From NCBI RefSeq assembly GCF_002954445.1, contig NZ_MQWA01000001.1, forward strand, positions 3,378,077-3,442,076: a stretch of 64,000 bases of DNA, read 5' to 3'. The translations under genes and the position numbers were made by a program. This document shows, in pieces, positions 33,924 to 51,406 of this stretch. Origin of the DNA: Rubritalea profundi (lineage in GTDB: Bacteria; Verrucomicrobiota; Verrucomicrobiia; Verrucomicrobiales; Akkermansiaceae). Numbering within the stretch: the stretch's first letter is position 1; each line of letters starts with the position of its first letter. The notes under the pieces are model-generated. The model was not told where the DNA came from. It searched no databases and worked only from the letters and a program-made list of their open reading frames with translations.

Positions 33924-34083
33924 TTCAGAGTTCAGAGTTCAGAGTTCAGAGTTCAGAGTTCAGAGTTCAGAGTTCAGAGTTCAGAGTTCAGAGTTCAGAG
34001 TTCAGAGTTCAGTGTTCAGTGTTCAGAGTTCAGTGTTCAGTGTTCAGAGTTCAGAGTTCAGTGTTCAGTGTTCAGAGTTCAGA
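33924..34083. repeat. Heptanucleotide tandem array (TTCAGAG), about 23 copies
   Basis: Head-to-tail 7-mers TTCAGAG run for about 160 bp. The second half holds variant units with TTCAGTG. A second array with the same unit lies at 51325-51406, 17 kb away. The unit length is a multiple of neither codon nor helix turn, and no gene is adjacent on the array itself, so phase variation of a coding region is not supported. Confidence 0.95.
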
Positions 34084-36171: not shown

Positions 36172-37990
36172 GATCCCACGGTAGACGGTGGAGTGGTGGG
36201 GGGATGAGGCTGGAGAGGGGGGGGACGAGCGGCATGGGGCTGCTAAGAAATGCATCCTTTGCCGTGGAGAAGTGCAGGGATCTCTAGCTAATTGGGTTGA
36301 GCCTTTTAGCTAGAGATGCTGCTTACTTGAGTGTGCGAATGTGAGCCATGATGTCGGCGATCACGGAGTCTGGCAGTTGGTCAAAGATGCCTGATGGCAT
36401 GAAGGAGCGGGAGCCAGCATGTTCTTCGCGGCGGATGTCTTTGCGCGGAATGAAGACTTTTTCGCCGCCTTGGAATGCGACAGTGGCGCCGAGTCCATCG
36501 GACTTGATCTTCATTCCTTCATGGATCGTGCCATCCTTTTCGATCACGCGGAAGAGAATGTAGGCTCCCTCGGCTGCTGCGTCAGGTAGTAGCAGAGCGG
36601 TGAGCAATGCCTCAGGTTCACGTTTGGCCGAGCCATCTAGAGCGGGGCCAATTCCTGCACCTTGGTCGCCGACCTGGTGGCAGCTCAGGCACATTCCTGT
36701 GAAAATGGCTTTGCCAGCGGTGGCATTGCCGCCTTTTTTCTCAGCAAGCTTGATCAGTGAAGGAATACGCTCTTTGGCTTTCGTTTTGGCAGCATTGTGC
36801 TTGGCTGTAGCAGTATCGTAGATTGATTTGACTGTGGGGTTCTTTTTAAACGCGAGGGCAAAGTGCATGCGGTCGGCTGTGGTGTAGTCGAAGTCCTCAA
36901 TGCTCAATACTCCGGCATCGACTAATTCACGGAGCTGAAAGAGGCCGTGGTCAGACTTGGCTTGCACTTGGATGATTTCAAGTTTTCGGCCTGGGTTTTG
37001 TTTGAGGAATGCTGCGAGGAAATTCCGATTTTTGTTGCGGCTAGCACCATCGGCTCTGCCCATGGAATAGGCAGCCTGAATGAAGCTTTCAAATTGGCTG
37101 TTAGGGTCTTTGAGGATTGCTTCAAAGTGTTGCACATATGTGTGACGGTCTATATCCAGAGCCTTCAGGGCGGCAAGTTTGACAGCCTCGTCGTTGCTGG
37201 TCTTGTAGAGATTCTCAGCTTTCGGAAGTGCTGGTTTCACCCGCAATCGCGAAATGGCTTCTAGGCCTTTTACTTGTAGTTTCGGATCGCTGTTATCTAA
37301 CAAGTTGTTGATAGAGAGAGCTATAATCGAGCCAAAGCTGTCGGACTGAACTGCGCGTTGGTTAGCGAGTGCAAGAGCAACAAATTTCTCAGCATTTGCT
37401 TTGTCGGAGAACATAGGCTTGAGCTCTTTTACGATGCTCTTTTCCGAGGTTAGTCCCGCGAGAACGACAAAGGTCGAGTCGTTCATCGGCTTAGATTTGA
37501 GATTCTTCCAAATCTTGAGGAAGGCTTTATCGCCGGCGCCGGGGAGTGCTTGGTTCGCCCAAAGTAAGTTTGTTGCTGGCATGGCGGCGCCAGCTGGAGT
37601 TGCTAAGAATTGTTCTAACTCAGAAGGGTATTGCTCTAGTGCTTTGCGAGCGAGGAAGCGTTCGAACTTGCGCTCGTAGGGGCCACCTATTTGGTTGCCT
37701 GGAAGTTCTTTCTTACAAGCATCGACAAGTAGGCTGATGGTTGCGTTGCTCGCTGTTCCAATATCGCTGAGTGTTCGAAGAATCTGCGAACGCAGCATGA
37801 CATTTTTGTCACTTGCTAGCGGTTGGACTAGGTTCGCTACTTGGTCGGCGGTGAGCTTGAAGCTGGCTAGCGATCTGACTGCCTCGCGGCGAAGTTCATC
37901 ATGCTCGGAAGCGAGCGTTGCAATCATTAGCTTTTCGTCAAAATGTCCGAGAGATTCCAGCGACCAGAGCGCGTGGATGCGGGTGGTCGT

Positions 37991-38057
37991 GCTAGCTGAC
38001 TTATCCGCAACTAGAGAAACGAGCGCTGGAATGAGCGGCTTCGTTTCTTGCGCTGGA
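37991..38057. repeat. Source copy of the 67-bp direct repeat
   Basis: This segment encodes AQETKPLIPALVSLVADKSA within the HEAT region of the PVC dehydrogenase. It is identical over 67 bp, in the same orientation, to 38524-38590. As it is in frame here and disruptive there, this is the ancestral copy. Confidence 0.9.
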
Positions 38058-38523
38058 CGGTCGGCGATTTGATGCCAAGCGGCACGTTTTTCCCAGAGCG
38101 TCGGAGCGCTAAGGTGTTTTACCAATGCATTGGCTGGAGCGGTGATGAGGTTCGGGATAGAATGTGGTTTCTGAGACTCGTGGCGGATACGCCAGATTCG
38201 ACCGTGTTTTTTATCGCGATCTGGGTGGGTGGTGGGGAGCTCGTTGTGCGAGACAATCTTGTTGTACCAATCGACAATGTAGAGGCAGCCATCTGGGCCA
38301 AACTCAGCATGCACTGGGCGGAACCAATCGTCTTTTGACTTTAGTAGTGGTTTTAAATGCTCCGCAGTGACTGAGCCATCAGGGCTGCGCTTGATCCGCA
38401 CGCTGTTGATTTCTGAGGTGATTGGGTTGGCTAAGAAAGCGACGTCTTTCCACTCGCTAGGGAATCCCTGTTTGCCATCTTCAGAAAATGCTAAACCGGA
38501 GAGTCCGGTGCCGCCCACCCGGA

Positions 38524-38590
38524 GCTAGCTGACTTATCCGCAACTAGAGAAACGAGCGCTGGAATGAGCGGCTTCGTTTCTTGCGCTGGA
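38524..38590. repeat. Inserted 67-bp duplicate that breaks the PVC dehydrogenase
   Basis: Exact copy of 37991-38057, 466 bp apart by inner edges. It joins HKF of the N-terminal part to a stop after SFQRSFL, just before the GGTGLSG segment. A local templated insertion or an assembly error would both give this picture. Confidence 0.9.
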
Positions 38591-39547
38591 ATTTATGTAA
38601 ATTGGGGAACTGAGGTTGATAAGGACGAAGGCGTTCGTTACCGATGCCTCTGTATCCAGTTTGTTCTTCCATAGGCACTACAGACCAACTCTGGTCATTG
38701 GCCTCTGTGCCGTACCACTGGCCGTTTGCCTGCATGGTGTAGCCCCAGATGTTATTGAGACCAGCATTGATGACTTCGATTTTGTTGCCGTCGAGCGAGA
38801 ACTTGGCACATTTTGAATAGTCCATGCGAGCCGACTGGCCTGAGCGCACAGCGGTGATGTTGCCTTTGTTGAGTGCGCCTTGGGTGAAGTGAATCCAGCC
38901 GCCAGGGCCGCGAACCATGCAGTGAGCCATGGTGTGGGTGTCGGTAAATCCGAAGCCAGTGAGTACAGGGACGCGCTTGTCGCTCTTTCCATCGTTGTTC
39001 GTATCATTCAGATAGAAAAACTCTGAGCCTTGCGCCACATAGACACCATTGCGGTAGGGGATCAATGACTGGGGAATAGTGAGACCTGACGCAAATGTCT
39101 TGGTCTTGATCTTTTGGCCGGGATAGATGCCAGAGAGTACAAGGATCTCATCTTCTCCACGGGTGCGACCTTGGTAGAGATCTTTGATTCTCTTAAATTC
39201 AGGGTTCTTGTCCTGCGCCGCAGGGTCATCCATCAATTTTAGCAATACGTTCCACTGGATGTCTTTGACCGGATCGAGCGGGTACATCCGAGCTGTTTGG
39301 GTCCATAGTCGACCAGAGTCGTCGAAGCTGAGATCGATCGGGTTGATGACGCCGTCTTTTTCGCTGGCGACGAGTTCCGCGACGAAGCCTTCTTGTAGCT
39401 CGAAGCCTGCAAGTTGTGCTTCTGGGGTGCTGGCTTCGGTGCGGGCAGATTGGGTTTTCTTTGCCTGCGTCGTGAGTGTCACTCCAAGTGAGATGCCGAG
39501 GAATATTGAAAGTGTTTTCATGGGTAGAATGAGCAGTTAGAGGACGC

Positions 39548-40186
39548 TTAGAGTTCTTCGATGACGATGTTCTTGTATTCCATTTTGGCGATGCCGCCGC
39601 TGTGGAGTTGGAGGGCGATGACTCCTGGAGTGGTGAATTTTTTGTCAGTTTCATTCCAATCACAGGTTTTCACACCATTGATGTAGAGTTCGTGGCGATC
39701 GCCAGTGCAGCGGATGGTGTAGCTGTTCCAGCCATCTTCTTTGAGTAGGTGCTTGAGCGTGCTCAAGTCGCCTTTGACGAGCTTGCCACGGCGATGCTCG
39801 TCATAGATGTCACCCCAGTAGCCTTTGCCAATGTCAGCTTGGTAACCGATGATTTTTCCATTGTGTATGCCAGAACGGTATTGCAGGCCGCTGTTGATGA
39901 GCCCTGTTTTTTGGTCTCCTGAGAGGCGGAAGAGGCAACGGAACTCAAAGTCTGCGTAATTTTTCTCTGTCGCGAGGTAGGTGTTGGTGGGCATTTTTTT
40001 ATCACCGCTGGAGCAAGTGATGACGCCGTCGACAACCGACCAGTAGTGGGCGTTGGCAGGGTTGACCGCTTTCCAACCGGTGAGAGTTTTGCCGTCGAAG
40101 AGAGAGGTTGCTTTGACGCTGGATGGTGCGGCGGAGCTGACAAGTGTGGTCGCTGCGAGAGCGAGTGTGAGAAGTAGTTTGTTCAT
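39548..40186 (-). CDS. Secreted DUF1080 (3-keto-disaccharide hydrolase-like) protein
   Basis: A 212-residue protein with signal peptide (MNKLLLTLALAATTLVSSA). The DUF1080 concanavalin-like fold is visible from TSLFDGKTLTGWKAV through FEFRCLFRLSGDQKTGLINSGLQYR, KIIGYQADIGKGYWGDIYDEHRRGKL, to WNSYTIRCTGDRHELYINGVKTCDW and IALQLHSGG. Members hydrolyse 3-keto-glycosides or bind carbohydrate in the periplasm; they are hugely expanded in Planctomycetes and Verrucomicrobia. The pairing with a downstream oxidoreductase (26 bp apart) makes sense for oxidation at C3 followed by cleavage. A pair of 21-bp-spaced repeats lies 36 bp upstream. Confidence 0.9.
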   Translation of the reverse strand: MNKLLLTLALAATTLVSSAAPSSVKATSLFDGKTLTGWKAVNPANAHYWSVVDGVITCSSGDKKMPTNTYLATEKNYADFEFRCLFRLSGDQKTGLINSGLQYRSGIHNGKIIGYQADIGKGYWGDIYDEHRRGKLVKGDLSTLKHLLKEDGWNSYTIRCTGDRHELYINGVKTCDWNETDKKFTTPGVIALQLHSGGIAKMEYKNIVIEEL

Positions 40187-40221
40187 CTGATACTAGAGTG
40201 TACCGATTGGTGGTGGTGTGT

Positions 40222-40254
40222 TTATCAACATTCGAATATGTGTTATCCACATGT
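40222..40254. promoter_or_regulatory. AraC-type tandem operator candidate upstream of DUF1080
   Basis: Two direct repeats, TTATCAACATT and TTATCCACATG (ATC at 40224 and 40245), are spaced exactly 21 bp, two helical turns. The same motif with the same spacing occurs at 42818-42850 in front of the other unit of this locus. AraC-family activators bind tandem direct half-sites with this geometry. Confidence 0.55.
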
Positions 40255-40277
40255 TGCTGATTGGAATGAGGGAGTGA

Positions 40278-41477
40278 TTAGGCCTGTTCTATGAGTTCTA
40301 GTAATTTGCGGGCAGCGGCCTCGGCGAAGATCGGGCTGTTGATTTCTTCATCGTAGTCAATGACTTCCACCTGAGCAGTGGCGTGAATGGCATCGAACAG
40401 TGCTTTGTCGGCCTCAGCATCGTAGAACGGTTGACCTTTCGCTGAAATGATACTGACGGTTTTGAGCGGGTTGAGGATGGCTGTAGGAGCTGGGTTTGCA
40501 TTGGCTTTCTCAGCGATAATTTTTCCAAGTTGCGCACATTCTTCTGCGTTAGTGCGAAGCAGCGTGACCTGTGGGTTGTGAACGTAGATTGTGCGGTTCT
40601 TGAATTTTTCAGGCAGCGTATCTAATTCACCATAATTTGCCATGTCGAGGCAACCAGGGGCGACGACTGCGGGAACTCGCGCTTTAGTCATAGCGTCCAT
40701 CCGTGTGGGGCCTGCGGTCAGAGTGGCTCCTAACAACTCGTCAGCCCATTCGGTGGTGGTGATATCTAATACCCCAGCAACCATACCGCTTTCGATGAGG
40801 CTTTCCATGGATTTTCCACCCATGCCTGTGGCGTGGAAGATGAGGACCTCGTAGCCCGCGTCTTCGAGGATTTTACTCGCATGATTGATGCATTCCGTGG
40901 TGTTGCCGAACATGCTGGCGACGATGAGTGGCTTGGAGCCAGAGCTGTCGACCTTGGAAGTGACCATTCCGCAGATGGCACCCGCAGCCTGGCTGAAGAT
41001 GGTTTTAGAAATGCGATTGAGTCCGGCTACATCGACGATGGATGGGATCATCACAATGTCCTTGGTGCCGACATAGTGAGCGGTGTTGCCACTGGCGAGA
41101 GTGGAGACCATCACCTTAGGAAAACCAATTGGGAGGGCGCGCATAGCTGCGGTTCCTAGTGCTGTTCCGCCGCCACCGCCGAGTGAAATAATGCCGTCGA
41201 TTTCCCCTTCTTCGGCCAGTTTGGAAACGAAGAGTGGGGCGGCCTTTGACATAGCCACGACGCACTCGCCACGGTCTTGCCGATCAATCAGAGCTTGGAG
41301 GTCAGTGTTGTTTGCAGCAGCAACCTCAAAGCGTGAGAAATCAGGAGTGACTTGAGGCTCAGCGCCAGTGCCCAAATCGATGAGAATGGGTGTGTGACCA
41401 TTGGCTTTGATTTGTGCTGCGACGAAAGTATGTTCGTGACCTTTAGAGTCGAGGGTTCCTACTACGGCGATGTTCAT
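40278..41477 (-). CDS. Tm-1-like ATP-binding protein (UPF0261)
   Basis: A 399-residue protein with the two-domain Tm-1/UPF0261 layout. It starts MNIAVVGTLDSKGHEHTFVAAQIKANGH; residues about 90-110 contain the nucleotide loop GIISLGGGGGTALGTAAMRALPIG; later features are TKDIVMIPSIVDVAGLN and GVLDITTTEWADELLG. The plant homologue Tm-1 blocks tobamovirus replication; bacterial members occur with PEP-hydrolase-like TIM barrels and are thought to act in small-molecule catabolism, but the reaction is unknown. Here the order is TIM barrel, Dabb, Tm-1-like on one strand with gaps of 36-53 bp, so they are probably co-transcribed. Confidence 0.88.
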   Translation of the reverse strand: MNIAVVGTLDSKGHEHTFVAAQIKANGHTPILIDLGTGAEPQVTPDFSRFEVAAANNTDLQALIDRQDRGECVVAMSKAAPLFVSKLAEEGEIDGIISLGGGGGTALGTAAMRALPIGFPKVMVSTLASGNTAHYVGTKDIVMIPSIVDVAGLNRISKTIFSQAAGAICGMVTSKVDSSGSKPLIVASMFGNTTECINHASKILEDAGYEVLIFHATGMGGKSMESLIESGMVAGVLDITTTEWADELLGATLTAGPTRMDAMTKARVPAVVAPGCLDMANYGELDTLPEKFKNRTIYVHNPQVTLLRTNAEECAQLGKIIAEKANANPAPTAILNPLKTVSIISAKGQPFYDAEADKALFDAIHATAQVEVIDYDEEINSPIFAEAAARKLLELIEQA

Positions 41478-41513
41478 GGGATTTAGTAAAGTATCAGCTA
41501 ATGAAAATTATTT

Positions 41514-41834
41514 TTAGAGCGCAGCTGTACACTCAGGTGTTGGTTCAAAGTCTAAAACGATAGCACGCTCGAGGTAGAGTCCAAAGAGCTCGACGCGTTC
41601 CATGTGGATCGGGTGAGGAAGGTAGGCGTCGCGAGATTCAAACGAGTCGAATGTCATGCAGAAAACGTGTTCGAGACCTTCATCGAGACCTTCGTCTGAT
41701 TTGTGTGGGCCATGTTCGATTTTGAGAAGTCCGGGCAGCTGGCCGACCATGGCTCTGAGCTCTGAGAAACAATACCGGATCTGCTCTGGTGTGGTTTCAT
41801 CCTTAAATTTGAATCCTCCTAAATGTCTTATCAT
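41514..41834 (-). CDS. Dabb (stress-responsive A/B barrel) family protein
   Basis: A 106-residue protein with the dimeric alpha/beta barrel pattern: MIRHLGGFKFKDETTPEQIRYCF, LPGLLKIEHGPHKSD, EHVFCMTFDSFESRDAYLPHPIHMERV. The YLPHPIHMERV helix is a family hallmark. Dabb domains act as small enzymes or binding modules, for instance cyclases and decarboxylases on polyketide-like substrates. Its position between the TIM barrel and Tm-1-like genes suggests it handles an intermediate of the same pathway. Substrate unknown. Confidence 0.9.
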   Translation of the reverse strand: MIRHLGGFKFKDETTPEQIRYCFSELRAMVGQLPGLLKIEHGPHKSDEGLDEGLEHVFCMTFDSFESRDAYLPHPIHMERVELFGLYLERAIVLDFEPTPECTAAL

Positions 41835-41886
41835 AGTTTTGGTGATGGATGCTGAAAAGAGGCTGGAAGCACTCTTTTACGAGGGT

Positions 41887-42756
41887 TTATTTGATGCGCT
41901 TGACGGGAATAGCTTTGAACTCACGAGTGAGGTCAGTGATAGATTGCTCCACCGCCATCCGTTCGATGCTGGAGGCACCAACAAAGCCGACTGTGTCAGT
42001 GCGTTCGTTGATATAAGCTGCGTCAGATGGGGTGAGAATGGGGCCGCCGTGGGAGAGCACCATGACGTCTTTGCGTACAGAATGCGCCGCTTCGCAAATG
42101 GCTTGCGTGGCTTCAGCTGCTTGGTCGAGTCCGATAGAAGCATCGCTCACTCCAATAGATCCACCAACAGTGCAGCCGACATGGGCAATGACAGCGTCAG
42201 CTCCGGCTGCGGCCATTTTTTGTGCTTCTTCAGGAGTTGCCACGTAGGTGATCGTGAAAATATCCATTTTACGAGCAAGAGCTACAGTATCGATTTCTTT
42301 CTGAACTCCCATGTTAGTTTCCTCCAGCGACTGGCCGAATTGACCGTCGATGATGGTGTGGGTTGGAAAGTTATTGATGCCTGAGAACCCCATGGCTTTG
42401 ACTTGCTCGAGCCAGTGCCACATGCGGCGGCGTGGGTCGGAGGCGTGGACGCCGCAAATTACTGGGATTTCGTTGACGACTGGCAGGACTTCGTATTCGC
42501 CGATGTCCATCGCAATCGCGTTGGCATCACCATAGGCCATCATGCCGGCGATAGAGCCAGCACCCGCCATGCGGAAGCGGCCAGAGGCGTAGATGATGAT
42601 CATGTCGGCGCCACCTTTTTCGATGAACTTGGCAGAGATTCCGCAGCCTGCGCCAGCGACGATAATAGATTCTCCTCTAGAAAGTGTGTTGTTAAGTCGT
42701 TCGAGGACTTCTGTGCGAGTGTATGGGTTTCCGATCCCCGTGTATGGATTTGGCAT
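41887..42756 (-). CDS. Phosphoenolpyruvate hydrolase-like TIM-barrel protein
   Basis: A 289-residue TIM barrel of the PEP-hydrolase/IGPS-like group. The first segment SRGESIIVAGAGCGISAKFIEKGGADMIIIYASGRFRMAGAGS is diagnostic. Then VLPVVNEIPVICGVHASDP, FSGINNFPTHTIIDG and GADAVIAHVGCTVGGSIG follow. Characterised relatives hydrolyse C-C or P-O bonds of small keto acids, but substrates vary. First gene of its operon, 62 bp downstream of a tandem AraC-type repeat, divergent from the AraC gene. Length normal and no lesions. Confidence 0.9.
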   Translation of the reverse strand: MPNPYTGIGNPYTRTEVLERLNNTLSRGESIIVAGAGCGISAKFIEKGGADMIIIYASGRFRMAGAGSIAGMMAYGDANAIAMDIGEYEVLPVVNEIPVICGVHASDPRRRMWHWLEQVKAMGFSGINNFPTHTIIDGQFGQSLEETNMGVQKEIDTVALARKMDIFTITYVATPEEAQKMAAAGADAVIAHVGCTVGGSIGVSDASIGLDQAAEATQAICEAAHSVRKDVMVLSHGGPILTPSDAAYINERTDTVGFVGASSIERMAVEQSITDLTREFKAIPVKRIK

Positions 42757-42817
42757 GAAACTTAGTTTGTTGGTGAGTGGCTAGACTAAAGGAGTATCAA
42801 CTGAGGGAAAGAAAAAG

Positions 42818-42850
42818 TTATCCACAATGACATACTTGAAATCCACATTG
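42818..42850. promoter_or_regulatory. AraC-type tandem operator candidate upstream of the PEP-hydrolase operon
   Basis: Direct repeats TTATCCACAATG and AAATCCACATTG (ATC at 42820 and 42841), spaced 21 bp. They match the pair at 40222-40254. They lie in the divergent region between the operon and the AraC-family gene, 62 bp from the operon's ATG. The first repeat also equals a DnaA box, but the spacing and context favour a regulator. Confidence 0.6.
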
Positions 42851-43013
42851 TTTGTAGGTGTTTCAGTATGAAGAGAGGGTGTTATGTGGTAAGGATTATC
42901 CTAACATGGCGCTGCGGTTTCATTTTTCTATAGCGTCGTTTGTTGAGGGGCGTTAGCTTGAACTTATGTTGCATCACGTTGAGGGGATGGCTTTATTTTA
43001 AGAGTTACAGACT

Positions 43014-43880
43014 ATGAAATCACTTAAAAATATTACCGGAAATTCTAGAATATTCGGCAACGAATCTAAGCTTAAAGTTGTGCGATCTACTGAGATCGAT
43101 GACCGTGAGTGGTTGGGTGATGCTCCAGTCTGTGCGGTCTTGGCAAAACACAACATTTTACACGCGGCGGTGATGCATGCGAAAGAGGGCTTTTCCGTGT
43201 CACGAGCGCATCAGTCGGGGACGTTCATGTTGGCCAGCCTTGAGGGGGAAGGTATTGTGCTAGCTGATGGTAGGTGGAAAAAGGTGAAGGCTGGCCAAGC
43301 GTGTTTGCTGCCGCCCTTTGTCGCCAATTCCCTTAAAGTGGTCGATGGACAAGATTGGAAGTTTTGCTGGGTGCGTTATATAGAATCAAAAGCATGCAAG
43401 CCGATCGTCTCGGAGGTTTCCCCGGTGAGTGGTGACTTCAACGGTGAGCCGCTAGCTTCTTCTATTCTGGGGTTGATAGCAGAGTGTCAGGCGGAGCTCT
43501 CACCGGCGGCCACGCATTTGTGGGTTGAGTTGATTCAGCACTACGTGTTGAGTTTCGCGCAGCCACACCAGAAGGATGATCGGCTGTGGAAGTTATGGCA
43601 TAAAGTGGAGAAGCACCTTGGGGATGATTGGTCGCTCCACGGCTTGGCGCACGATGCCAAGCTCAGCGAGGAACATCTGAGGCGGCTTTGTCAGAAGCAA
43701 CTGGGGCGGAGCCCAATGCAGCACCTCACGTTTTTACGGATGCAGAGAGCCAGTCATTTGCTTTCTAGTGGTAGTGATAAGATCGAAGTTGTCGCTAAGG
43801 CTGTTGGCTATGACTCTGCTTTCCATTTTTCTAATGTCTTTGCTAAGTGGGTTGGCTGTAGACCCTCTGAGCACAGGTAG
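43014..43880 (+). CDS. AraC family transcriptional regulator
   Basis: A 288-residue regulator. The N-terminal cupin-like sensor (residues about 45-150: SRAHQSGTFMLASLEGEGIVLADGRWKKVKAGQACLLPPFV) is followed by two HTH units: SLHGLAHDAKLSEEHLRRLCQKQLGRSP and DKIEVVAKAVGYDSAFHFSNVFAKWVGCRP. It is intact, unlike its paralogue at 14022-14869, and helps define that lesion. Divergent from the PEP-hydrolase operon with a 21-bp-spaced tandem repeat in between; probably activates that operon and the DUF1080 unit on sensing the pathway substrate. Confidence 0.92.
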   Translation: MKSLKNITGNSRIFGNESKLKVVRSTEIDDREWLGDAPVCAVLAKHNILHAAVMHAKEGFSVSRAHQSGTFMLASLEGEGIVLADGRWKKVKAGQACLLPPFVANSLKVVDGQDWKFCWVRYIESKACKPIVSEVSPVSGDFNGEPLASSILGLIAECQAELSPAATHLWVELIQHYVLSFAQPHQKDDRLWKLWHKVEKHLGDDWSLHGLAHDAKLSEEHLRRLCQKQLGRSPMQHLTFLRMQRASHLLSSGSDKIEVVAKAVGYDSAFHFSNVFAKWVGCRPSEHR

Positions 43881-51324: not shown

Positions 51325-51406
51325 TTCAGAGTTCAGAGTTCAGAGTTCAGAGTTCAGAGTTCAGAGTTCAGAGTTCAGAGTTCAGAGTTCAGAGTTCAGA
51401 GTTCAG
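51325..51406. repeat. Heptanucleotide tandem array (TTCAGAG), about 12 copies
   Basis: An 82-bp run of perfect TTCAGAG heptads beginning 4 bp after the trpD stop. It has the same unit as the 23-copy array at 33924-34083, here without the TTCAGTG variants. Confidence 0.95.

Follow-up and report, generated by a model that had tools for sequence, protein, structure and literature searches.

A 64,000-nucleotide stretch of the Rubritalea profundi genome (contig NZ_MQWA01000001.1, positions 3,378,077 to 3,442,076; hereafter the window) carries at positions 36323-43880 genes for a TIM-barrel protein, a Dabb protein, a UPF0261 (Tm-1-like) protein, a DUF1080 protein and a PVC-type dehydrogenase, in this order on the minus strand, together with a divergent AraC-family regulator gene on the plus strand. 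As judged by sequence comparison with related loci, the six genes are one conserved unit beyond chance, and a shared direct-repeat operator supports their co-regulation. We give a probability of about one half to the reading of this unit as a conserved catabolic regulon that AraC controls in Verrucomicrobiota and in which a glycoside would be oxidized and cleaved outside the cytoplasm and the product would be phosphorylated and broken down inside.

Conservation of the locus in relatives

The host genome (4.17 Mb) belongs to the Verrucomicrobiota, and relatives of the locus were found in genomes named Akkermansiaceae, Haloferula, and Luteolibacter. Co-occurrence was assessed in 54 related loci in which the TIM-barrel gene adjoins the UPF0261 gene and enough flanking sequence was available. 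Downstream and on the same strand, 32 of them carry a DUF1080 gene and 32 a PVC-type gene, compared with ca. 1.4 of each expected from the roughly 24 DUF1080 and 24 PVC genes per 4.17 Mb (the PVC count is approximate, as split hits were merged by eye); since the loci are related to each other, a binomial figure overstates their independence. Dabb was detected in 25 loci and a divergent AraC gene in 24. All five enzymes occur together in 20 loci, 15 of these also with the divergent AraC, and the full sets are spread over several genera (g1, g7, g9, g10, g12, g13, and g16 by genome handle). An earlier note on this DNA had made its proposal depend on the five genes recurring together in other genomes, which they do, and its idea of one conserved catabolic unit under one regulator is borne out by this linkage together with the conserved operator described below.

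In many relatives, DUF1080 and PVC dehydrogenase are a single protein of ca. 1400 amino acids encoded inside the operon, and UPF0261 followed by a DUF1080-PVC gene was also seen on Opitutae-type contigs (L052, L054, L061, and L062). At the level of whole genomes, 104 of the 195 members of the family have both the TIM barrel and UPF0261, 3 and 2 are discordant, and 86 have neither gene or no listed match. No further gene was found to be conserved across the family; only an FG-GAP repeat protein, which is not in the window, recurs in close relatives, between UPF0261 and DUF1080 (L114:7132-8355, L124:7438-8727, L116:11667-12983). In other phyla, the UPF0261-TIM pair stands beside sugar ABC transporters, with a small cupin at the place taken here by Dabb.

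A shared operator-like direct repeat

The TIM-barrel gene is preceded by a 10-bp direct repeat with its copies 21 bp apart (CAATGTGGAT-N11-CATTGTGGAT), and DUF1080 by a similar site; against these two sites, 0.09 would be expected in the window by chance. When no more than one mismatch is allowed, the refined motif (ATGTGGAT-N5-ATA-N7-GTGGA, a direct repeat phased at 21 bp) matches at just three places in the whole genome, located upstream of the TIM barrel, of DUF1080, and of an unlinked DUF1080-PVC fusion gene (C1:3065488 onward; L193:7489-11768), the last being a perfect match. The product of this unlinked gene is 64% identical to the fusion found inside the operon in other genera, and its nearest AraC neighbor shares 26% identity with the AraC of the window, in the DNA-binding part only. 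The first pattern used for the genome-wide search had the wrong inner spacing, gave background matches only, and was replaced by the refined motif.

When tested against shuffled sequences, the operator upstream of the TIM barrel was individually significant in 30 of 39 regions from relatives, and an ATA at positions 15-17 of the aligned sites, not used for site selection, was 83-96% conserved. The motif also precedes fusion genes in genus g9 (L230, L231, L234, L236, and L237) and in G064; it is absent ahead of the unlinked fusion genes of G046, G124, G128, G113, G148, G136, and G154, so its use is not universal. A spacing of about 21 bp is typical of AraC-family half-sites, and the predicted site upstream of the TIM barrel has this period, the direct-repeat form, and a position near the target promoter, so the AraC protein of the window would be expected to bind it. 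The operator-like repeats had already been pointed out in the earlier note, and both the chance expectation and the position of the three best genomic matches speak for them; the unlinked DUF1080-PVC gene sharing the operator had been missed.

In genus g9 (L121:11598-19790; G108:C305), two more genes are located on the far side of AraC, one for a 721-amino-acid protein, closely preceded by an operator with one mismatch, and one for a 1982-amino-acid (LTD/CotH) protein; the two are possible further members of the regulon.

Gene products and the interrupted dehydrogenase

All six gene types listed in the earlier note were recovered by Pfam and TIGRFAM matches (see the table). Hydrophobic signal sequences, read from the translations, are present at the start of the DUF1080 and PVC proteins and absent from the TIM barrel, Dabb, and UPF0261. 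The TIM barrel combines a full-length family match with a paired UPF0261 gene, which adjoins it in most loci of the family; the UPF0261 protein has both domains of a full-length member, and the DUF1080 protein unites its hydrolase domain with a secretion signal. An NCBIfam search assigned no function to the TIM barrel, Dabb, or DUF1080.

Features of the locus (window coordinates)
Feature	Position	Strand	Evidence or detail
AraC-family regulator	43014-43880	+	Pfam HTH_18 4e-20, AraC_binding 1e-4
Operator-like direct repeat, 21-bp period	42820-42850	-	64-94 bp upstream of TIM start
TIM-barrel protein, PEP_hydrolase family (TBST), 289 aa, cytoplasmic	41887-42756	-	PF09370 3e-104, profile positions 1-267 of 267
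Dabb small alpha-beta barrel protein, 106 aa	41514-41834	-	PF07876 3e-21
UPF0261 (Tm-1-like) protein, 399 aa, probable small-molecule kinase	40278-41477	-	PF06792 7e-63, PF23189 3e-82
Second operator-like repeat, UPF0261-DUF1080 gap, upstream of DUF1080	40224-40254	-	one mismatch to refined motif
DUF1080 / 3-keto-disaccharide hydrolase, 212 aa	39548-40186	-	PF06439 1e-37, profile positions 2-186 of 187; N-terminal signal sequence
PVC dehydrogenase, N-terminal fragment (signal sequence and first part of DUF7133)	38544-39521	-	PF23500 1e-38, TIGR02604
Templated 67-bp insertion, TCC-flanked, perfect copy of 37991-38057	38521-38587	-	breaks PVC reading frame
PVC dehydrogenase, C-terminal fragment (rest of DUF7133, HEAT repeats, CxxCH cytochrome)	36323-38518	-	PF23500, HEAT_2, Cytochrom_C, TIGR02603 3e-24
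Perfect 12-bp inverted repeat directly past PVC stop codon	36280-36317	-	12/12 complementary, 14-nt loop

The PVC dehydrogenase, taken as one gene in the earlier note, is split into two open reading frames by the 67-bp insertion, whose source copy lies 533 bp away inside the same gene. The TIGR02604 N-domain, HEAT repeats, and CxxCH C-domain typical of PVC-type dehydrogenases are all there across the two fragments (with a CLSCH motif in the C-terminal one), and once the 67 bases are removed the gene has 1043 codons and aligns end to end, at 53% identity, with intact genes from a genome of the same genus (L114) and from another genus (L124). In its simplest reading the insertion looks like a copy-and-paste (template-switch) event, and an assembly fault may also have caused it. 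The unlinked fusion gene is likewise split, by a frame change near L193:9340. Stops or split frames were seen in other DUF1080/PVC genes of the genome as well (C1:1401581-1403436 and 3580648-3581764), which suggests either decay of the family or low consensus quality.

The TIM barrel matches PDB entry 2p10 both by sequence (E 2e-75) and by the fold of its predicted model, with weaker fold matches to PEP mutase and isocitrate lyase; as the model reached only middling confidence (pLDDT 69), we relied on the sequence match. PEP mutase chemistry, favored at the level of the fold only, was considered for this protein and rejected. A second TIM-barrel copy (71%) is encoded elsewhere in the genome (L113:5678-11541, C1 ca. 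2093677-2099540); it is accompanied by a separate AraC gene and a ThuA-PVC protein, and there is no UPF0261 beside it. The relatives of Dabb in the PDB are At3g17210 and olivetolic acid cyclase, and those of UPF0261 are plant Tm-1 (3wry; TM-score 0.86 with the predicted model) and Novosphingobium Saro_1862 (9mpy). UPF0261 is probably a small-molecule kinase, because Saro_1862 was crystallized with acetovanillone and acetovanillone catabolism in the same Novosphingobium species begins with the single-component kinase MarK (PMC13101465). The earlier note had described all three cytoplasmic proteins as of unknown chemistry, a description that the probable kinase role of UPF0261 now sharpens.

Among the remaining features, the inverted repeat behind the PVC gene is a possible transcript end; scans for RNA elements and tRNAs found none, and those for sigma-70 promoters and terminators gave results close to background. 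Tandem arrays of the heptamer TTCAGAG lie 17 kb apart at 33924-34083 (22.9 copies) and 51325-51406 (11.7 copies), and a short 7-bp array was noticed in L193 near 5268.

Proposed pathway, alternatives and known systems

In the catabolic regulon that we propose, the PVC dehydrogenase and the DUF1080 protein would oxidize a glycoside outside the cytoplasm and cleave its glycosidic bond, the product would be imported, UPF0261 would phosphorylate it with ATP, and the paired TIM barrel would then split or rearrange the phosphorylated compound, with Dabb assisting the inside steps. AraC, bound to the product or the substrate, would act on the 21-bp-phased repeat and so switch on two or three promoters. 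The oxidize-then-cleave chemistry, with cleavage of a 3-keto glycoside by the DUF1080 protein, is drawn by analogy: DUF1080 proteins with a known role are 3-keto hydrolases, the one from Caulobacter being needed for growth on lactose (PMC9007349), and a purified Verrucomicrobiota PVC-type protein (TIGR02604, HEAT, and CxxCH) frees glucose from lactose (PMC5342196). The two-compartment pathway of the earlier note thus agrees with the signal sequences, the DUF1080-PVC fusions, and the published activities of both secreted families; its substrate, its order of steps, the roles of the TIM barrel and Dabb and, in our version, the action of the TIM barrel after UPF0261 are suppositions. More specifically, UPF0261 and the TIM barrel could be a kinase-lyase pair by which the keto-sugar or aglycone that PVC/DUF1080 enzymes set free is processed phosphorylatively, and plant Tm-1, a fused protein with an antiviral role acquired later, would have had this chemistry ancestrally, but we regard this extension as rather doubtful.

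Several observations weigh against the proposed regulon. Neither DUF1080 nor PVC was detected downstream in 14 of the 54 loci, and no transporter is conserved in the unit according to the neighbor comparison across the family. The neighbors of the UPF0261-TIM pair are different in rhizobia, haloarchaea, and Thermomicrobium, and glycosides may therefore have no part in its core reaction. The translated TIM barrel has no KKCGH-type loop of PEP mutase and isocitrate lyase and resembles that superfamily at the level of the fold only, and the equation of MarK with Saro_1862 is an inference from a PDB title and a citing paper. Finally, the PVC gene of the locus looks inactive in this genome, so that a different PVC protein would have to carry out the secreted step.

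The last point leads to an alternative compatible with the proposed regulon, namely that the secreted arm is decaying in R. profundi, which would be left with no working DUF1080-PVC enzyme and a relic locus. The perfect templated copy in the local PVC gene, the frame change in the unlinked fusion gene, and the stops in a further PVC gene near C1:1402356 all agree with it, but the TIM barrel, Dabb, UPF0261, DUF1080, AraC, and both operators are intact, more than 10 other PVC genes are left in the genome, and the insertion itself may be an assembly error; we consider such decay a possibility to be taken seriously, though not the likelier outcome. It is also conceivable, but improbable in our view, that one regulator serves two functions, with DUF1080-PVC harvesting a glycoside and UPF0261-TIM-Dabb being a co-induced general salvage or repair module that does not act on the product. 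This would account for the pair occurring without DUF1080 or PVC across bacteria, archaea, plants, and fungi (PMC5028733) and for the family loci that miss both secreted genes, while the linkage on one strand, which goes far beyond chance and is seen in several genera, and the presence of the operator even at the unlinked fusion gene argue against it.

An aromatic route seems to us just as unlikely: a plant- or lignin-type glycoside would be split by the secreted enzymes to release its phenolic aglycone, and this phenolic ketone would then be degraded, in the manner of acetovanillone catabolism, by UPF0261, the TIM barrel, and Dabb. The ligand in the nearest functionally informed UPF0261 structure, the resemblance of Dabb to olivetolic acid cyclase (an aromatic-forming enzyme), and a Thermomicrobium locus pairing UPF0261-TIM with PEP-utilizing, FAH, and xanthine-dehydrogenase-type genes point in this direction. 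Against it, the biotin-dependent carboxylase and phosphatase of the Hpe/Acv/MarK pathway were not found at the locus, to which the search for them was confined, UPF0261 scores higher against plant Tm-1 (369 bits) than against Saro_1862 (275 bits), and the neighbors in relatives are carbohydrate genes (sulfatases, beta-helix proteins, a SASA esterase, and UxaE).

Bacteria, archaea, fungi, and plants all have members that carry the UPF0261-TIM pair; in the literature searched, neither its reaction nor a linkage to a glycoside-oxidizing arm was found. By tying the pair to glycoside oxidation, the linkage, the shared operator, and the fusion partners offer a concrete and cheap handle on its function, and a lead to the role of plant Tm-1 before virus blocking. 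Verrucomicrobiota are rich in PVC-type dehydrogenases, a group with hardly any characterized members; the regulon predicts which of them work together, and the operator motif can be used to find more PVC genes belonging to it.

Among known systems, the 3-keto-glycoside pathway (Caulobacter LacABC with its DUF1080 hydrolase, Bacteroides BT2157) similarly places a secreted 3-keto hydrolase of the DUF1080 family beside a periplasmic dehydrogenase (PMC9007349), but the dehydrogenase here is a PVC-type HEAT/cytochrome protein instead of the GMC flavoprotein of LacABC, and a cytoplasmic UPF0261-TIM-Dabb set and an AraC operator are added. Neither a GMC flavoprotein nor the Gluconate_2-dh3 subunit of LacABC-type loci was found within 36323-43880; a Gluconate_2-dh3 gene is present in the relative L009. 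The lactose-hydrolyzing Lac161_ORF7, also from Verrucomicrobiota, has the same TIGR02604, HEAT_2, and CxxCH architecture (PMC5342196), but it was studied alone and comes from another gene context, and the gene here is interrupted. Saro_1862/MarK of acetovanillone catabolism is a member of the UPF0261 family and a probable kinase, at ca. 30% identity and with a substrate probably different from the one used here. A further known system is the UPF0261/TBST pair itself, whose two families co-evolve and are encoded by adjacent genes in R. profundi and fused in plant Tm-1 (PMC5028733).

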